Program-made: the position numbers and the translations under genes | Assembly (NCBI RefSeq): GCF_007845675.1 | Contig: NZ_VOBR01000015.1 | Location: forward strand, 124,001 to 188,000 | Direction of reading: 5' to 3' | From: Lentzea tibetensis | GTDB lineage: Bacteria; Actinomycetota; Actinomycetes; Mycobacteriales; Pseudonocardiaceae | Length of the DNA stretch: 64,000 bases | Notes under the pieces: model-generated | Told to the model about the DNA's origin: nothing | Database searches by the model: none | The model's input: the letters and a program-made list of their open reading frames with translations, nothing else | Part shown: one piece after another, positions 44,711-59,216 of the stretch | Position numbering within the stretch: the stretch's first letter is position 1 | Layout: each line of letters begins with the position of its first letter

Positions 44711-45661
44711 GTGAGGATCGCGGGCAAGCTCGGCGGGGCCGTGGTCAGCCTCTCGATGGTCGTCGTGCTGGGGTTCTTCCTCTTCAGGGTGATCCCGGGT
44801 GACCCGGTCGTGTCGTGGACGCGCGGCCGGCCGACGACGCCGGAGATGCAGGCCGCGTTGCGCGCCGAGTGGGGCCTGGACAAGCCCCTGCCGCAGCAGT
44901 TCCTCGACTACCTCGGCAAGCTGCTGCGCGGTGACATGGGCACGTCGTTCACCTACAGCCGCCCGGTGCTGGACGTGATCTCCGAGCGCGTCGGGCCGAC
45001 GCTGCTGCTGGTCGGCACGTCCACGCTCATCGCGGTGCTCCTCGGTCTGTGGCTGGGGATCCGCGGTGCGTGGCGGCGCGACAGCCGCTTCGACCGGGTG
45101 TCGACGGGCGTGGCGCTGACGTTGTGGTCGACGCCGACGTTCTGGCTGGGGATGCTGCTGATGATGGCGACCGGGGACCTGTTCCCGAGTCGTGGCATGC
45201 GGGACACGGACACCGCGCCGGGTTTCTTCTCGCAGGCAGTGGACGTGGCACACCATCTGGTGCTGCCGTCGGTGACGTTGATCGCCGTGGTGTACGCGCA
45301 GTACCAGATGGTGATGCGGTCGTCGTTGCTGGAGGAGCTGCACGCGTCGTACCTGACGACGGCGCGCGCGAAGGGGCTGCGCGACGACCTGGTGCGGCGC
45401 CGGCACGCGGTGCCGAACGCGCTGCTGCCGGTGCTGACCCTGGTGTTCCTGCACCTGGGGCTGGTGGTGGCGGGGGCGATCACGACGGAGACCGTGTTCA
45501 CCTGGCCCGGTCTGGGGCTGTTGTTCTACGAGGCCCTGACCGGGCCGGACTACGCGTTGCTGCAGGGGTTGATGGTGGTGACGGCGGGTGCGGTGGTCGT
45601 GATGAACGTGTTCGCGGACCTGCTGTACCGGGTGCTCGACCCTCGGGTGCGTGCGGCGTGA
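44711..45661 (+). CDS. ABC transporter permease (DppB/OppB type)
   Basis: A 316-aa inner-membrane permease with six membrane helices and an EAA-type cytoplasmic loop (ARAKGLRDDLVRRRHAVPNA, near residue 218) that contacts the ATPase. The opening LGFFLFRVIPGDPVVSWTRG is the classic start of the family. GTG start directly after the binding-protein stop. Between it and the next permease is a 100-bp gap occupied by an 81-bp repeat. Confidence 0.9.
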   Translation: MRIAGKLGGAVVSLSMVVVLGFFLFRVIPGDPVVSWTRGRPTTPEMQAALRAEWGLDKPLPQQFLDYLGKLLRGDMGTSFTYSRPVLDVISERVGPTLLLVGTSTLIAVLLGLWLGIRGAWRRDSRFDRVSTGVALTLWSTPTFWLGMLLMMATGDLFPSRGMRDTDTAPGFFSQAVDVAHHLVLPSVTLIAVVYAQYQMVMRSSLLEELHASYLTTARAKGLRDDLVRRRHAVPNALLPVLTLVFLHLGLVVAGAITTETVFTWPGLGLLFYEALTGPDYALLQGLMVVTAGAVVVMNVFADLLYRVLDPRVRAA

Positions 45662-45676
45662 CGTCACTTCGGGCTC

Positions 45677-45757
45677 GTGAACGGGCCGTTGACTCGACTT
45701 GTCGTGGCACCGGACGCAACCTCGGACGTCCCGCAAAGAGGAAGCGCGGGGGGCGGG
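45677..45757 (+). repeat. 81-bp dispersed repeat, copy 1 (intergenic)
   Basis: An 81-bp segment that recurs in inverted orientation at 51176-51256, differing at about six positions, with the last 41 bp identical. It starts with GTGAACGGGCCGTTGAC, an almost perfect palindrome, then CGACttGTCG, then GC-rich complementary blocks. Here it fills most of the gap between the two permease genes. It would translate in an open frame beginning M/V-N-G-P. Confidence 0.8.
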
Positions 45758-45761
45758 TCGC

Positions 45762-46637
45762 ATGAGCGTGGTCTGGGATCGCCGCCGCACGGCGTGGGCG
45801 GCGGGGTGGCGGGCGTTCGCGGCGCAGCGCTCGGGAGTGGCCGGTCTGGCGCTGCTCGGGCTGGCGGTGCTGGTGGCCGTGCTGATGCCGCTGCTGACCG
45901 GAGCGGACGCGCTGAACGTGGCGCGCGTGGTGGCGCCCGCGTGGGAGCCGCCCGGCTCGGGGCACCTGCTGGGCACCGACCACACCGGACGGTCGGTGGC
46001 GCTGCTGGTGCTCAACGGCACCGCGGTGTCGCTGCTGGTCGGGCTCACCGCGGCCGGGTTGTCGGTGGCGATCGGCACGCTGATCGGGGTCACGGCAGGC
46101 CACTTCGGCGGGTGGTGGGGCGCGCTGCTGATGCGCGTCACGGACTTCTTCCTGGTGATCCCGGCGCTGGTGCTGGCGATCGCGCTGTCGTCGGTGCTGC
46201 CGCGCGGGATGGGCACGATCATCCTGGCGATCGCGCTGACGTCGTGGCCGTCGACCGCGCGGGTGGTGCGGGCCCAGACCCTCGCCGTGGAGGCGCGCCC
46301 GTTCGTCGAGCGCGCCCGCGCGCTGGGCGGCGGGCACCTGCACGTGACCGGCAAGCACGTGCTGCCCGCCGTGCTGCCGCTCGTGCTCGTGAACACCACG
46401 CTGACGGTGGCGTACGCGATCGTCGCCGAGTCGACGCTCGCGTTCCTCGGCCTCGGCGACCCGACGCGGCTGTCGTGGGGCTCGATGTTGCACCAGGCGC
46501 AGCTGCAGGGCGCGGTGTCGAAGGAGGCGTGGTGGTTCCTGCTGCCGCCCGGACTGGGGATCATCGCCGTGGTGCTGGCGTTCACCCTGGTCGGCCGCGC
46601 GCTGGAGACGGTGATCAACCCGAGGCTGCGGGGCTGA
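45762..46637 (+). CDS. ABC transporter permease (DppC/OppC type)
   Basis: A 291-aa permease: N-terminal membrane helix, HLLGTDHTGRSVALLVLNGT near residue 67 (the family's GTDxxGRD-like motif), five more helices and the EAA loop ERARALGGGHLHVTGKHVLP near 180. Forms the channel with the DppB-type partner. ATG at 45762 with GGGGGG upstream, close to the end of the 81-bp repeat. Followed 5 bp later by the ATPase gene. Confidence 0.9.
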   Translation: MSVVWDRRRTAWAAGWRAFAAQRSGVAGLALLGLAVLVAVLMPLLTGADALNVARVVAPAWEPPGSGHLLGTDHTGRSVALLVLNGTAVSLLVGLTAAGLSVAIGTLIGVTAGHFGGWWGALLMRVTDFFLVIPALVLAIALSSVLPRGMGTIILAIALTSWPSTARVVRAQTLAVEARPFVERARALGGGHLHVTGKHVLPAVLPLVLVNTTLTVAYAIVAESTLAFLGLGDPTRLSWGSMLHQAQLQGAVSKEAWWFLLPPGLGIIAVVLAFTLVGRALETVINPRLRG

Positions 46638-46642
46638 GTTCG

Positions 46643-48175
46643 ATGCTGGAGTTGCGGGATCTCACCGTCCACTACGGATCGCGCGCCGCGGTGCGCGACG
46701 TGTCGCTGACCGTCGAGCGCGGCCAGACGCTCGGGCTCGCCGGCGAGTCCGGGTCGGGCAAAACGACGCTCGGTTTGTCGGTTTTGCGGCTTTTGCCGCG
46801 TTCGGCCGAGTTGTCCGGGTCTGTGCTGCTGGACGGCGAGGACGTCGCGGAGATGTCGTGGGGCCGGCTGCGCGCGGTGCGGTGGACGCAGGCGTCGGTG
46901 GTGTTCCAGGGCGCGATGCACGCGTTGAACCCGGTGCGCCGGGTGGGTGCGCAGATCGCGGAACCCATGGAGCTGCACGGGGTTTCGGGTTCGGTGGCCG
47001 AGCTGCTGGAGCAGGTGGAGCTGCCGGCGTCGAAGGCGCGCGCGTACCCCCACGAGCTCTCGGGCGGGCAGCGGCAGCGGGTGATGATCGCGATGGCGCT
47101 GGCGTGCGACCCGAGGCTGATCGTCGCGGACGAGCCGACGACCGCGCTGGACGTGATCGTCCAGGCGCAGGTGCTGGGGCTGATGCGGCGGCTGGTCGAC
47201 GAGCGGTCGCTGAGCCTGTTGATGATCAGTCACGACCTGTCGGTGCTGACGTCCACGTGCGACGACCTGGCGGTGATGTACCAGGGCGAGATTGTGGAAC
47301 GCGGCCGCGCGACGTCGGTGATCTCCTCGCCGCGGCACCCGCACACCGCGGCGCTGGCGGCGGCGTTCCCGACGATCGGCGCGCCCGAGTTCCGCTTCGC
47401 CGGGCAGGCGCCCGTCCGCGAGCCGCTCTTGCGCACGGAAGAACTTCAGGTGAACTTCGGCCCCCTGCGCGCGGTGGACGGGGTGTCGCTGGAGGTGGGT
47501 CGCGGCGAGATCGTCGCGTTGGTGGGGGAGTCGGGTTCAGGCAAGACGACGCTCGCCCGCACGATCATGGGCCTGCAGCGGCCGTCCTCCGGACGGGTGA
47601 TCTTCGACGGTGCGCCGATCCCGCTGAAGGGCAAGGCGCTCAAGGCTTATCGGCGACAGGTTCAGCTCGTTTTGCAGGATCCGACTTCGGCGTTGAACCC
47701 GCGGCATTCGGTGTACGAGGCGGTGGCCGAGGGACTGCGCATTCACGCCATTCCTGGTGACGAGGAATCGCTGGTCACGGCCGCCGTCGAACGGTCGGAG
47801 CTGCGCCCGGCGGAATTGTTTCTGCCTTCCCTTCCGCACGAATTGTCCGGAGGTCAGCTGCAACGCGTGGTGATCGCCGGAGCACTCGCCCTGGGCCCGC
47901 GTCTGCTGGTCGCCGACGAGCCGGTCGCCTCGCTCGACGCCTCGGTGCGCGGGGAGATCCTGGCGCTGCTGCTCCGGTTGCGCGCCGAACTCGAGCTGGC
48001 AGCATTGATCATCACGCACGACCTGGGGCTGGCGTGGAACATCGCGGACCGGGTTGCGGTGATGTATCAGGGCCGGATCGTCGAACAAGGCACGGTGGAA
48101 CAAGTGCTGTTGGACCCTCGTCACGAGTACACGCGCAAGTTGCTGGCCGCCGTGCCGAGCACCACACGCGCGTGA
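46643..48175 (+). CDS. ABC transporter ATP-binding protein, two fused ATPase domains (DppD-DppF type)
   Basis: A 510-aa cytoplasmic protein with two complete ABC domains: Walker A GESGSGKTT near residues 34 and 295, signatures LSGGQRQRV and LSGGQLQRV, Walker B LIVADEPTTALD and LLVADEPVASLD, and His switches in ISHDLS and ITHDLG. It energises import by the two permeases. Fusion of the two ATPases in one chain is common in actinomycete peptide transporters. ATG at 46643. Its stop overlaps the next gene as GTGA. Confidence 0.92.
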   Translation: MLELRDLTVHYGSRAAVRDVSLTVERGQTLGLAGESGSGKTTLGLSVLRLLPRSAELSGSVLLDGEDVAEMSWGRLRAVRWTQASVVFQGAMHALNPVRRVGAQIAEPMELHGVSGSVAELLEQVELPASKARAYPHELSGGQRQRVMIAMALACDPRLIVADEPTTALDVIVQAQVLGLMRRLVDERSLSLLMISHDLSVLTSTCDDLAVMYQGEIVERGRATSVISSPRHPHTAALAAAFPTIGAPEFRFAGQAPVREPLLRTEELQVNFGPLRAVDGVSLEVGRGEIVALVGESGSGKTTLARTIMGLQRPSSGRVIFDGAPIPLKGKALKAYRRQVQLVLQDPTSALNPRHSVYEAVAEGLRIHAIPGDEESLVTAAVERSELRPAELFLPSLPHELSGGQLQRVVIAGALALGPRLLVADEPVASLDASVRGEILALLLRLRAELELAALIITHDLGLAWNIADRVAVMYQGRIVEQGTVEQVLLDPRHEYTRKLLAAVPSTTRA

Positions 48176-48864
48176 TTCCGATCGAACACGCGCGTTATCG
48201 CGCGGCGCTGACGCCTGCCGAGATCGGCCGGGGCGGCGCGGACGGCTGGGTCGCCGTCGAGGACGTGCCGTCGCTGGCGTGGTTGTGCTGGAACGACCTC
48301 GGCAGGCCACCGGGCGTGCTCGGTGAACTGGCCGAGGCAACCGATCCCACGCACATCATGGAGCTGTGCCGGGTGCTGGCCGCCACGTCCACTGTGGACA
48401 CGGCGGCGGTGTGGCGGTACTTGGCCGCGGACTGGTGCGGTACGGGCGAGCGGTCCGATGGGCGGCGGCGGTTCCTGCTGGACCGCGCGATGCGTGGTGA
48501 GGGCATGAACTGGCGGTCGTTCTCGGCGTTGATGGGCACCGACCGGCCAGAGGACGTGGCCGCGGCGTTCGCCCGCGACGAGCCGCTGGTCGGGGTGTCC
48601 GTGATCGGGCTGGCACTGTCCTATCCGGACCCCTGGCTCGTGCTGCCGTTCGTGGCGCGGGCGTTGGACCACAACCGGATCGAGGTGCGCGAGCACGGCG
48701 CCACGGCTTTGGCGCACGTGGCGCGGATCCACGGCGTGGTGTCCGCCGAGTGCCTCGCGGTGTTGAAGCGTCATCCGAACTCGGTCGCCGAAGACGATCT
48801 GTGGACGTTCATCCCGCATCGGAAGCTGCCGGTGTGGCTGTGGTGGCGGGTGCTGGTCTCCTGA
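48172..48864 (+). CDS. hypothetical protein, HEAT-like helical
   Basis: A 230-aa soluble, helix-rich protein with an armadillo/HEAT-like look (FVARALDHNRIEVREHGATA, then ALAHVARIHGVV). No recognised domain. GTG start in a GTGA overlap with the transporter ATPase, so it is co-translated, though the context does not give it a transport role. Its 3' end overlaps the convergent SARP gene by 56 bp. Function unknown. Confidence 0.7.
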   Translation: MIPIEHARYRAALTPAEIGRGGADGWVAVEDVPSLAWLCWNDLGRPPGVLGELAEATDPTHIMELCRVLAATSTVDTAAVWRYLAADWCGTGERSDGRRRFLLDRAMRGEGMNWRSFSALMGTDRPEDVAAAFARDEPLVGVSVIGLALSYPDPWLVLPFVARALDHNRIEVREHGATALAHVARIHGVVSAECLAVLKRHPNSVAEDDLWTFIPHRKLPVWLWWRVLVS

Positions 48865-51800
48865 ACGTCGCGACCAGCAGGCCCGGTTCGGGCTCGATCG
48901 TGCCGGTGCGTTCGAATCCCTCGCGTGCGTAGAGCGTCGTGGCCGGGGTGTTGAGCGCTCCCGTGTGCACGACGGCCGCACGTGGCGGCAGAGCCCTGAC
49001 GAGTCTGCGCGCGAGTCCTTTGCGGAAGTGGCCGGGGTCGACGCACAGCCGGTTGATGTCGAGCTCCTGCGCGTCCTCGTAGGCGACGAACGCGACGGGC
49101 AGCCCGTCGTCGCCGGGAACTCCCAGCCACGTCAGCGGCTGGGCGCGCATCTCGTCGAGCGTCTCGTGCAGCGGCGGGATGCTGTCCGCGCCGATGAGGC
49201 CGGCCTCGACCCGGTACGCCCGCTGCGCGACCTGGTGCACCCGCTCGGCTGTCTCGTCGTCGGTGACGTCGAGGTCCACCACGCCGGCCTCGCCGCTGAC
49301 GGTCTTGATCGCGATCTGGTCGCGTTGCGCCCGCGCCCTGCGCACGGCGTCGGTGAACGCGGCGCGCGCACCGTCGTGGTCACCGCGTGCGGCGGCGATG
49401 CGGCCGCGCGTGAACTGGATGTAGCAGCGGGTCTGCTCGGGCCCGTACCACCCGGACGGGCACTCGTCCCACGCCTGGTCGCACAGCTCCGTCGCCTCGT
49501 CGAGGTGTCCGCGCCGCAGCGCGAGCTCGCCCATGCCGAGGTGGCAGTTGGCGAGCGACGCACTCGACCCGGCCTGTCGCGCGAGCCCGATGGAGCGCCG
49601 GTAGTCGGCTTCGGCGCCCGCGAGGTCGCCGAGCGTGGCCAGTGCCGTTGCTCGCACGCACAGCAGGTCGGCCAGGTCTTCGGCCGCGTCGAGCTCCTCG
49701 ATCAGGTGCCGCGCCTGGTCCGCGCGCTCCACGGCCCGCTCGGGATGTCCGGTGAGCAGGGCGATCTCGGCGAGCTGCGCGAGACCGAGCGAGGTGCCCC
49801 ACCGGTCGCCGACGGCCTGGAACTGCACGACCCCGTCGGCGAGCAGACGCTCGGCGGCCGTGATGTCCTGCTGCTGCAACGCCATCAACCCCTCACCGAG
49901 CCGCGCGAGCGCGAGGCTCCACGGGTCGGCGCCGAGCAGGCCGTAGCGGCGTTCCATGTGGTCCAGTCCGACGCCGGTGGGCGCGCCGGTCGCCATGCCC
50001 CAGATCATGGTCATGATCGGGTAGCGCGGCGGGGCGTCGAGCGCGTCGGTGAGCCGGGTGGTGAGGCGCATGCGGGCGGTCTGGTCGCCGGTCGCGACGG
50101 GCCACGCGATCAGCAGCGCCATCGCGTACTCCTCGGACATGCCGGGAACCGGGGTGTCGCCGGTGGCGACCAGGAGGTCGTCGGCGAGACGGGCCGCGTC
50201 CGTGCGCAGACCGCGGAACCACCAGTACGTGGTGAGCGCGGCGATCAGCTCGAGCGCGGTGCGGTGGTCGGCGGCGATGGCCCAGCGCACGGCGGCGGTG
50301 AGGTTGTCGTTGTCGCGGGCGAGCCGGTGCAGCCAGGTGAGCTGCTCGGTGCGGCGCAGGTGGGGCTCGGCTTCGCGGGCGAGCGCGAGGAAGTGCGCGG
50401 CGTGACGGGGCCGGATGTCCTCGCGCGCTTTGGCCGCGCAGAACGCGCGAATGGTGTCGAGCATGCGGTAGCGGTCGTCGCTGATCTCGACGAGGGACTT
50501 GTCGACGAGACCGGTGAGGACGTCGACGTCGGCCAGGCCGCACACGGCTCGGATGGCGTCGAGCGAGGCGCCGCCGGTGAACACGGTCAGCTGGGTCGCG
50601 AGGTCGCGCTCGGCGTCGTCGAGGAGGTCCCAGCTCCACTCGACCACGGCCTGCAGGGTGCGGTGGCGGGGTGCGGCGGTGCGGCTGCCGCGGGTCAGGA
50701 GGCGAAACCGGTCGTCGAGGCGCGTGGCGATCTCGGTGAGCGGGAGCGCGCGGGCGCGGGCCGCGGCGAGTTCGATGGCCAGCGGCATGCCGTCGAGTGC
50801 GGCGCAGATCGTGGCGACCACGCGGGCGTCGGGTTCGAGGTCCGGGCGGACGGCCAGGGCCCGGTCGATGAAGAGGCGGGCCGCGCTGGTGGCCTCCAGC
50901 GGAGGCAAGGGGCACAGCGTCTCGCCGGTGATGGCGAGCGGTTCACGGCTCGTGGCGAGCACACGCAGGTTCGGGCACCCGGCGAGCAGCTTCCCCACCA
51001 CGGTAGCGGCATCCGCGATCACGTGTTCGCAGTTGTCCACAACCAGCAGGACAGGACGGTCGGCCAGTGCCGCGGCCAGCCGGTCGACGGCGTCGACCTG
51101 GCCTGCCGGGGAACGCAGGCCGGTCTCGCGGGCGCCGACCGCGGTCAGCACCGCCTGCGCCACCTCGGCACCTGCCCCGCCCCCCGCGCTTCCTCTTTGC
51201 GGGACGTCCGAGGTTGCTTCTGGTGCCACGACTGGTCGCGTGAACGGCCCGTTCACCGCACCGAGGTCGGCGAAGTACACCTCGTCAGGCCACTGACCTG
51301 CGGTTTCCACGGCGAGACGGGTCTTGCCCGCGCCGCCCGGTCCGGTGAGGGTCACCAGTCTGGCCTCGCCGAGCCACTTGGTGACGCGGCGGACCTCGTC
51401 GGTGCGGCCGACGAAACTGGTCAGCTGCGCCGGGAGGCGGCGGGGGCGTTCGGCGCGCAGGACTTCCAGGTGCGCGGCCGCCAGGTCCGGTGACGGGTCC
51501 ACGCCCAGTTCCTCGGCGAGCAGGCGGCGGCCGGACTCGAACACCTCCAGCGCTTCGGCTTGGCGGCCGTCGCGGTGCAGGGCGTGCATCAACGCGGCGC
51601 GCAGGTTCTCGCGCAGCGGGTGCGCGGTGACCAGGTCGCGCAGCGCGGCCACGTCGCCTTCGACGGCGACGGCGTCGATGTGCAGCTCTTCCAGGCGGGC
51701 ACGGGCCGCGGCGGCGAACGGGGTGTCCACATCGGCCAGTGCCGGGCCGCGCCACAACGCCAGTGCTTCGGCACCGCGGCCCTGGGCGACGAGCTCCGCG

Positions 51801-52099
51801 CAGAGCGAGGCGTCCACTGAGGACGGATCGGTGAGCAGGCGGTAGCCGGCCGGGCTGTGCTCGATCACGGCGCCGGGGAGCAGTCTGCGCAGGCGGGACA
51901 CCTGGGACTGCAGCGCGTTGGCCGCGTTCGCGGGCAGGTCTGTTCCGTAGAGGCCGTCGATCAGACGGTCTTGGCCGACGATGCGGCCCGCGTCGAGGAC
52001 GAGCATCGCCAGCAGGGCTCGCAGGCGCGGGGCGCCGATCGGGACGAGTGTCCCGTCGGCGAGCCGCGCCTCGAGCGGACCCAGTACTCCGAAACGCAC
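48809..52099 (-). CDS. SARP-STAND regulator with TPRs and fused GNAT acetyltransferase domain
   Basis: A 1096-aa AfsR-like protein: OmpR-type winged helix (1-90), bacterial transcriptional activation domain (95-215), NB-ARC with Walker A GPGGAGKT at 253-260 and Walker B PVLLVVDNCEHV near 345, helical and TPR repeats to about 950, and a C-terminal GNAT-like domain near 985-1085 (INRLCVDPGHFRKGLARRLV acetyl-CoA loop, ATTLYAREGFERTG). Residues 282-308 are an insertion encoded by the 81-bp repeat, between the first and second NB-ARC strands. GTG start at 52099. Likely pathway-specific activator; target unknown. Confidence 0.85.
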   Translation of the reverse strand: MRFGVLGPLEARLADGTLVPIGAPRLRALLAMLVLDAGRIVGQDRLIDGLYGTDLPANAANALQSQVSRLRRLLPGAVIEHSPAGYRLLTDPSSVDASLCAELVAQGRGAEALALWRGPALADVDTPFAAAARARLEELHIDAVAVEGDVAALRDLVTAHPLRENLRAALMHALHRDGRQAEALEVFESGRRLLAEELGVDPSPDLAAAHLEVLRAERPRRLPAQLTSFVGRTDEVRRVTKWLGEARLVTLTGPGGAGKTRLAVETAGQWPDEVYFADLGAVNGPFTRPVVAPEATSDVPQRGSAGGGAGAEVAQAVLTAVGARETGLRSPAGQVDAVDRLAAALADRPVLLVVDNCEHVIADAATVVGKLLAGCPNLRVLATSREPLAITGETLCPLPPLEATSAARLFIDRALAVRPDLEPDARVVATICAALDGMPLAIELAAARARALPLTEIATRLDDRFRLLTRGSRTAAPRHRTLQAVVEWSWDLLDDAERDLATQLTVFTGGASLDAIRAVCGLADVDVLTGLVDKSLVEISDDRYRMLDTIRAFCAAKAREDIRPRHAAHFLALAREAEPHLRRTEQLTWLHRLARDNDNLTAAVRWAIAADHRTALELIAALTTYWWFRGLRTDAARLADDLLVATGDTPVPGMSEEYAMALLIAWPVATGDQTARMRLTTRLTDALDAPPRYPIMTMIWGMATGAPTGVGLDHMERRYGLLGADPWSLALARLGEGLMALQQQDITAAERLLADGVVQFQAVGDRWGTSLGLAQLAEIALLTGHPERAVERADQARHLIEELDAAEDLADLLCVRATALATLGDLAGAEADYRRSIGLARQAGSSASLANCHLGMGELALRRGHLDEATELCDQAWDECPSGWYGPEQTRCYIQFTRGRIAAARGDHDGARAAFTDAVRRARAQRDQIAIKTVSGEAGVVDLDVTDDETAERVHQVAQRAYRVEAGLIGADSIPPLHETLDEMRAQPLTWLGVPGDDGLPVAFVAYEDAQELDINRLCVDPGHFRKGLARRLVRALPPRAAVVHTGALNTPATTLYAREGFERTGTIEPEPGLLVATFRRPAPATTATPAASDAG
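51176..51256 (-). repeat. 81-bp dispersed repeat, copy 2 (inside SARP gene)
   Basis: Reverse-oriented copy of the segment at 45677-45757. The palindrome GTGAACGGGCCGTTCAC is perfect here. It adds exactly 27 codons in frame to the SARP-STAND protein (V-N-G-P-F-T-R-P...G-G-G). Equal length and high identity of both copies point to a mobile or recently copied element. Confidence 0.8.
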
Positions 52100-53609: not shown

Positions 53610-53775
53610 GGGCAAGAACACTTCGGACTCATCTCCTAGGAGTAACCACGCTCCGCGTACGAAGCGGCACGCGCAGTATGCTCCCGTGCTCCGAACGGCC
53701 CAAACCGGCCTGTGGACAACTCCGTCCTCGAGGCCTCTCACGGCCCGGAACTGTCGGTGTCACGTGGAAAAATGA

Positions 53776-59160: not shown

Positions 59161-59216
59161 TCCGATCTTGTACCGCACGGCACCGACAATCCGGGGCCTC
59201 ACCCGCGTGGGTGAAG

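Follow-up and report, generated by a model that had tools for sequence, protein, structure and literature searches.

The window, by which we mean the whole stretch of 64,000 nucleotides analysed here (contig C17, positions 124001-188000), comes from our own genome (G000), a draft of 9.36 Mb in 105 contigs. It holds two copies of an 81-bp repeat, one between two ABC permease genes and the other inside a regulator gene of the SARP-STAND type. Judged by the relatives of the SARP-STAND protein, the source genome belongs to Lentzea and is nearest to Lentzea sp. NBRC 105346, which is very probably the sister genome G020 of our comparisons, the match in G020 falling inside the contig range of that strain. 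The genes and features concerned, numbered from the first letter of the window, are the following:

44711..45661, + strand: dppB-like permease gene (PF00528, PF19300), upstream of copy A1
45658..45765, + strand: entire insert, GTGA of the dppB stop through ATGA of the dppC start
45677..45757, + strand: copy A1, the 81-bp element core between the dppB-like and dppC-like ABC permease genes
45677..45693, + strand: 17-bp palindrome of A1, with one unpaired position, GTGAACGGGCCGTTGAC
45706..45730, + strand: GGCAC-N16-CGTC core resembling an extracytoplasmic function (ECF) promoter, at offset 29 from the palindrome start (putative, from the spacing)
45762..46637, + strand: dppC-like permease gene (PF00528), downstream of A1
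48809..52099, - strand: predicted SARP-STAND regulator gene with a C-terminal GNAT domain (domain search), host of copy A2
51176..51256, - strand: copy A2, 81 bp, read in frame as 27 codons (residues 282-308) within the SARP-STAND gene
51240..51256, - strand: perfect 17-bp palindrome of A2, GTCAACGGCCCGTTGAC, with compensating changes in the Lentzea sp. NBRC 105346 orthologue

An earlier note on this DNA, made from its letters alone, had described two copies of equal length with about six differences, and this is indeed what is present: both are 81 bp long and differ at 6 positions (15, 18, 23, 24, 36 and 39). They end in an identical stretch, as that note had said, although it measures 42 bp and not 41. 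The likeness of the two is not due to chance, because copy 2 matches copy 1 with a BLAST E value of 5.7e-28 over the whole genome. A 26-base piece of the repeat occurs at just these two places of the window with at most 3 mismatches, where shuffled sequences expect 0. The 17-bp palindrome said to open the element is perfect in copy 2, but copy 1 has one unpaired position. The further complementary blocks turned out to be weak: the consensus fold (7 + 6 pairs, -13.3 kcal/mol) consists of the palindrome and a poor second hairpin, and the palindromic part is the first 17 bp only. BLASTN with the 81-bp unit found more than these two copies in G000. There are four close ones, namely A1 and A2 on C17, A3 on C48 and A4 on C2 (E values from 4.3e-36 to 1.5e-22, pairwise identity 0.85-0.92), and a family model raises the number of full-length members to 15.

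Copy A2 is an insertion of 27 codons into the ATPase region of the regulator, as had been proposed. AAA_16 covers residues 229-372, slightly under the Pfam cut-off, and encloses the insert; TPR_MalT is also below the cut-off, and Trans_reg_C, BTAD and Acetyltransf_1/7 are above it. The GNAT acetyltransferase domain lies C-terminal to the TPR region, a combination that seems unusual. By alignment, the insert would belong to a short, variable loop that joins the strand after the Walker A motif to the next helix; the PDB contained no sequence match to the ATPase region at E <=0.01. Alignment of ten Lentzea loci (our own and 9 of 80 relatives that were kept) confirmed that relatives do without these residues. 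The site is filled in two loci, which are sisters at 96/97 support, and empty in the other eight, which form a 100/100 clade; it is also empty in Kutzneria, Amycolatopsis and the other aligned relatives. The 27 residues are thus no native conserved loop. Between G000 and G020 the insert is 91.4% identical in nucleotides and the gene 75.1%, and only 6 of 754 overlapping 27-codon windows reach the level of the insert. Third positions are alike at 85% in the insert versus 60% in the gene. Six codons of the insert have changed, and two of the changes alter the palindrome in a compensating way, one of them at the cost of a Phe/Leu exchange. Together with the third-position identity, these compensating changes point to constraint at the DNA level or to conversion among copies.

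At the permease genes, the insert of 45658..45765 holds an open reading frame (ORF) of 35 codons and a stop, which overlaps both neighbours by 4 nt. The element is present at this junction in G000 and G020 and absent from eight of eight other Lentzea loci. At six of these eight element-free junctions, the ATGA of the dppB stop also holds the in-frame start of dppC. L061 and L062 carry unrelated, palindrome-free inserts of 128 and 77 bases, each with a small ORF running from ATGA to ATGA, and perhaps these represent another repeat resembling the mycobacterial interspersed repetitive units (MIRUs). The junction on C48 is similar: its flanking genes adjoin in all 24 other Lentzea genomes, overlapping by ATGA in 18 and by GTGA in 6, with both genes in frame, and in G000 they are separated by an insert of 131 bases with GTGACC at both ends. 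The distances from one RTGA (ATGA or GTGA) to the other are 104 bases at dppB-dppC in G000, 119 at the same junction in G020 and 131 at C48, all of them 2 modulo 3. In all three occupied cases, at two sites, a stop-free ORF runs from a start codon in the left RTGA to a stop in the right RTGA, with overlaps of 4 nt. The repeats at the ends are GTGACC on both sides at C48 and just TGA at dppB-dppC.

How far the family extends depends on the query. The 81-bp unit matches at E <=1e-4 in two of 25 Lentzea genomes. A sequence-only family model, built on 16 copies (14 from G000 and 2 from G020), finds 15 full-length members in G000, 14 of them among the model-building copies, and 9 in G020, 2 of them among those copies. 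One strong full-length match each was found in G006, G007, G009, G015 and G018 (E 5.4e-9 to 3.0e-13). At E <=0.01 all 25 Lentzea genomes match; elsewhere the stronger matches span the 3' half only, and G003 and G010 have weak matches alone (best E 4.1e-3 and 5.3e-3). The members of G007, G009 and G015, the three of the five genomes in which this was checked, sit among the same genes. This shared member (L169, L170 and L171) overlaps the predicted 3' end of an opposite-strand gene and may form its C-terminus. In a sample of 120 genomes of its own family, a model of the 3' half reached E <=1.1e-11 in four Lentzea and had no match in the Lentzea genome G010; in other genera it matched 13 genomes, at E 2.4e-4 or worse. 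No carriage by phage, plasmid or viral contigs was seen with the C48 copy as blastn query or with one exact pattern. The open-access literature yielded no account, from Lentzea or its family, of a repeat like this one, which does not prove that there is none.

The palindrome in its perfect form (any middle base) occurs at 21 places in G000 versus 0 in the reversed control, and one to seven times each in 15 of 149 other genomes of the family; one of the six other Lentzea among these 149 has it, twice. With one mismatch it occurs at 45 distinct places in G000, 8 of them within predicted genes. A search for the 3' end pattern with 2 mismatches was uninformative (216 matches versus 257 in the control). 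Some arrangements deserve separate mention. At G000:C19:71140-71618 (L270), four consecutive palindromes lie in a low-scoring 260-codon ORF of repetitive sequence. Three members lie within 1.1 kb at G000:C55:255418-256508 (L047-L049); two of the three are 97% identical, and in two the usual 3' stretch is replaced by a perfect GCGCGTCC/GGACGCGC stem. In four Lentzea (L178, L179, L183 and L194) the 3' module lies downstream of the end of the same helicase-like gene, which we take to be UvrD/PcrA. A TGACCTGCGG motif precedes the module in three of these four and also opens the C48 insert, and may mark where the element really begins on its left side.

The occupied sites differ between close relatives. 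For 12 sites of G000 that were compared with G020 (C28, C33, C55b and C55c stood outside this comparison), six are shared and six are absent. The shared ones are A1, A2, A4, C66b, C57 and C44, the last three judged by the same neighbour genes; A3, C13, C66a, C50, C55a and a partial member at C55:121819 are absent, which means that the orthologous gene piece has no member up to about 330 bases away; A3 is the exception, as its junction itself was seen. In a joined query, the pieces for C28 and C33 gave no match in G020, and C55b/c had one. Orthologous elements of G000 and G020 range widely in identity: 0.53 at A1, 0.51 at A4, 0.69 at C44, 0.81 at C57, 0.82 at C66b and 0.91 at the SARP site. Copies from different sites of one genome reach 0.92 (A1 and A2, 5.5 kb apart), 0.91 (A1 and A3) and 0.96 (two copies in G020). 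As elements at shared sites can be less alike than copies within one genome, sequence seems to move among sites, by insertion or by conversion.

The members have a common layout: the palindrome, 11-12 or 21-22 bases, G[GC][AC]AC or GAAAC, 16-17 bases, CGTT or CGTC, and a conserved AAGCGCG-type stretch. The core of type GGAAC-N17-CGTT resembles an ECF promoter. The promoter-like pair fits 23 of 24 elements, at offset 28/29 in 8 and 38/39 in 15, against a mean of 0.1 and a maximum of 2 in composition shuffles, a comparison in which the motif was derived from the same related sequences. From the palindrome start to AAGCGCG there are 65-66 bases in 8 elements, 74-77 in 15 and 71 in one. As the two spacing classes are about one helical turn apart, they suggest that proteins bind on one face of the DNA. 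In 24 aligned 3' modules, GGAAC and CGTT are constant and the spacer varies. Position 3/15 of the palindrome is G-C in 8, C-G in 3 and unpaired in 5 of 16 copies. With a palindrome and an ECF-promoter-like core at fixed spacing, the element may move promoters too. That the 3' module has a stable RNA hairpin at its core was rejected for the weak energy and little covariation, and a known RNA family was rejected as well, since Rfam had 0 matches in the window at the gathering threshold.

The palindrome also occurs with another motif. At window position 53751 (+), ACTGTCGGTG-N8-AAAAAT is followed by a GGGGACCCCC hairpin, here without a palindrome, and a similar site lies at 59189 (-). The motif at 53751 looks like a RecA-NDp (PafBC-type) promoter with a conserved leader. 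The palindrome of our repeat precedes 11 RecA-NDp-like sites examined in G000 (L032-L034, L039-L042, L046 and L051-L053), at which TGTCGG or TGTCAG begins 36-37 bp past the palindrome start, or 57-58 bp, two helical turns more. At L011, L013, L021 and L051, the upstream gene uses the TGA of the palindrome as its stop codon. A hybrid in G020 (G020:C6:397356, L267) joins the palindrome and a RecA-NDp-like TTGTCAG to a AGGAAGCGCGCGGGGG tail of the ECF-like class, and the upstream gene has its stop in the GTGA of this palindrome.

The SARP-STAND gene is not the only gene that contains a copy. In G020 an antisense copy lies inside an open gene resembling a polyunsaturated fatty acid (PUFA) synthase in its domain order, in an Ala/Pro-rich linker between the acyltransferase and carrier-protein domains; no match crossed this linker, and hence no empty site was seen there. 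The SARP copy is read in frame +1 and the PUFA-synthase-like gene uses the opposite strand, so that there is no single shared peptide frame. Between three and five of the six frames are free of stops in 23 of 24 elements, and all six in one. Frame +1 is open in 22 of the 24 elements and frame +3 in all of them, above all 500 composition shuffles, a test that is not clean because the elements are related. The same relatedness makes the excess for frame +3, the coupling frame, a weak one (24 of 24 versus a shuffle mean of 14.7). Among the five A-type copies, the bias between codon positions is slight (5, 5 and 8 variable columns).

We consider it probable that Lentzea has a family of small, non-autonomous mobile repeats with the 81-bp unit as their core, confined to this genus as far as we searched. 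What is observed are occupied sites next to empty sister sites, a coupling geometry at two sites and an in-frame insert. Judged by arrangement, such a repeat can act like a MIRU and occasionally like a Rickettsia palindromic element (RPE). Movement would follow from presence and absence across the sister genomes. An insert flanked by RTGA, with an ORF from the upstream stop to the downstream start, would let translation pass from gene to gene, which may keep insertions at junctions nearly neutral, as proposed for mycobacterial MIRUs. The SARP-STAND copy would have entered in the common ancestor of our strain and Lentzea sp. NBRC 105346, and its open frame and a length divisible by three may have let it survive as a 27-residue insert. 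Exchange of sequence between copies seems to occur too. The proposal of a short mobile element tolerated in protein genes gains support from the additional copies and from the finding that the loop is not native.

Several observations weigh against this reading. Among seven co-directional gene pairs with an element that were examined, RTGA stands at both ends in four and a through ORF is found in three of these, which leaves two sites to carry the coupling argument. At C44, in both genomes, and at C50 the stop lacks an RTGA. Further members are placed in ordinary intergenic DNA, in many cases following a stop codon. Stop-free frames are so common in these elements that one in-frame survivor is unremarkable alone. 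The outer ends are not fixed, and the target-site duplication that the earlier note wished to see checked is not clearly present at the SARP site. A search for the Y1/RAYT transposase (PF01797), the sole transposase family searched, gave 0 matches in G000 and no mobilising gene was found; as a control, PF01797 matched in 5 of 14 genomes. Finally, the 105-contig draft state of G000 is a caveat.

The strongest competing explanation is that the operon, rather than the element, demands the coupled overlap: any insert that survives at such a junction must keep translation running, and the MIRU-like design would be an illusion of survivorship. The element-free inserts of L061 and L062, with the same two-ended 4-nt overlap, tell against our preferred reading here, because they show that selection for coupling may come from the operon itself. 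The copy on C6 of G020 fits this alternative as well, having RTGA at both ends (distance 148, 1 modulo 3) and no through ORF. Against it, the C48 overlap is an RTGA in all 24 relatives and was split with GTGACC on both sides, suggesting that RTGA is also a preferred target; the open frame +3 speaks, weakly, in the same direction. We regard this explanation as possible, though not the likelier one. Somewhat less probable is that the SARP copy derives from A1 by gene conversion or template switching instead of transposition. Copying from A1 would transfer the core alone and leave no target duplication, and the SARP insert is indeed core only, whereas the C48 insert has extra ends. A1 and A2 are also inverted, 5.5 kb apart and 92-93% identical, the last 42 bp being the same, and at two sites orthologous copies differ more than copies of the same genome. 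Yet the dppB-dppC copy of G020 belongs to another subtype (0.53 to that of G000) while the SARP copies are 0.91 identical, so that A1 as it is now did not simply serve as the source for both species.

A regulatory origin of the pattern appears about as doubtful as templated copying. The repeat would then be a palindromic operator at a fixed helical position before an ECF-type promoter (GGAAC-N17-CGTT) whose first transcribed bases are conserved. Selection on transcription would keep the copies, their spreading being secondary, and transcription would be expected to start near the AGGAAGCGCG stretch. The promoter-like pair in 23 of 24 elements, the constancy of GGAAC and CGTT despite a variable spacer and the G-C, C-G or unpaired states at palindrome position 3/15 agree with this. 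The downstream gene, however, often has the opposite orientation or is hundreds of bases distant, one copy lies within a coding gene and another antisense in one, and neither the near-identical 81-bp copies nor their presence and absence at operon junctions would be explained. Mobility and regulation could be combined in a selfish repeat whose palindromic operator keeps a fixed helical phase to an ECF-type promoter, which inserts unnoticed at coupled genes, seeds starts controlled by a regulator and is occasionally translated into a new loop, but we think this unlikely. Far less credible still is a selected loop of a SARP-STAND subfamily with a secondary likeness to the repeat. The conservation of the insert relative to its gene would fit such a loop; its absence from eight of ten Lentzea loci and the outgroups, on which we reject it, its DNA match to three further copies, of which two lie on other contigs, and the agreement of its third positions do not.

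Among known systems, a REP/RAYT system would also give many dispersed palindromes, mostly intergenic, but was rejected because G000 has no Y1_Tnp (PF01797) gene. The enterobacterial small mobile sequences RU-1, RU-2 and RU-3 are described in PMC2759123 as repeats of 103-168 bp that lie between genes, have open frames and also occur in annotated genes. By description, our repeat is similar, a small, apparently mobile intergenic repeat with open frames and with copies in genes; it differs in host and size, and targeting of RTGA is not mentioned in the abstract of that paper. RPEs, as outlined in PMC10969869, are short repeats of intergenic DNA that also occur, in frame, within unrelated protein genes. 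The in-frame SARP insert in two species, empty in relatives, and the copy in the PUFA-synthase-like gene of G020 resemble this. Membership in the RPE class, towards which the earlier note leaned, finds no support: RPEs are about 150 bp long, lie often in genes and encode a conserved peptide, whereas the Lentzea repeat is palindromic over 17 bp only, has its two in-gene copies on opposite strands and lives in an actinomycete. That note also knew of no description in actinomycetes, which needs qualifying, as the closest working parallel is the MIRU of mycobacteria, itself actinobacterial. MIRUs (Supply et al. 1997, as cited in PMC12548453) are there presented as apparently mobile repeats that insert at start codons, with an internal ORF coupled at a -4 spacing. 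The Lentzea family likewise is a short, dispersed and apparently mobile repeat (6 shared and 6 absent of 12 sites) that has inserted at stop/start overlaps with an internal ORF overlapping by 4 nt, in three cases at two junctions, leaving the operon readable. The other four of the seven co-directional pairs do not share this arrangement, and the coupled ORF is not specific to the element, given L061 and L062. The likeness is one of description, with these differences: a palindrome and an ECF-promoter-like core belong to the Lentzea repeat, the remaining members that were examined lie away from such junctions and two copies are inside coding genes. Extra loops in actinomycete regulators can, as a caution, be repeat DNA. 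As the sister genomes supply matched empty and filled sites, the neutrality of the inserts can be tested directly in a soil actinomycete. If our reading is true, MIRU-style insertion at coupled genes extends beyond mycobacteria, and one family joins it with in-frame insertion into protein genes, which the sources cited above describe for Rickettsia and enterobacteria.

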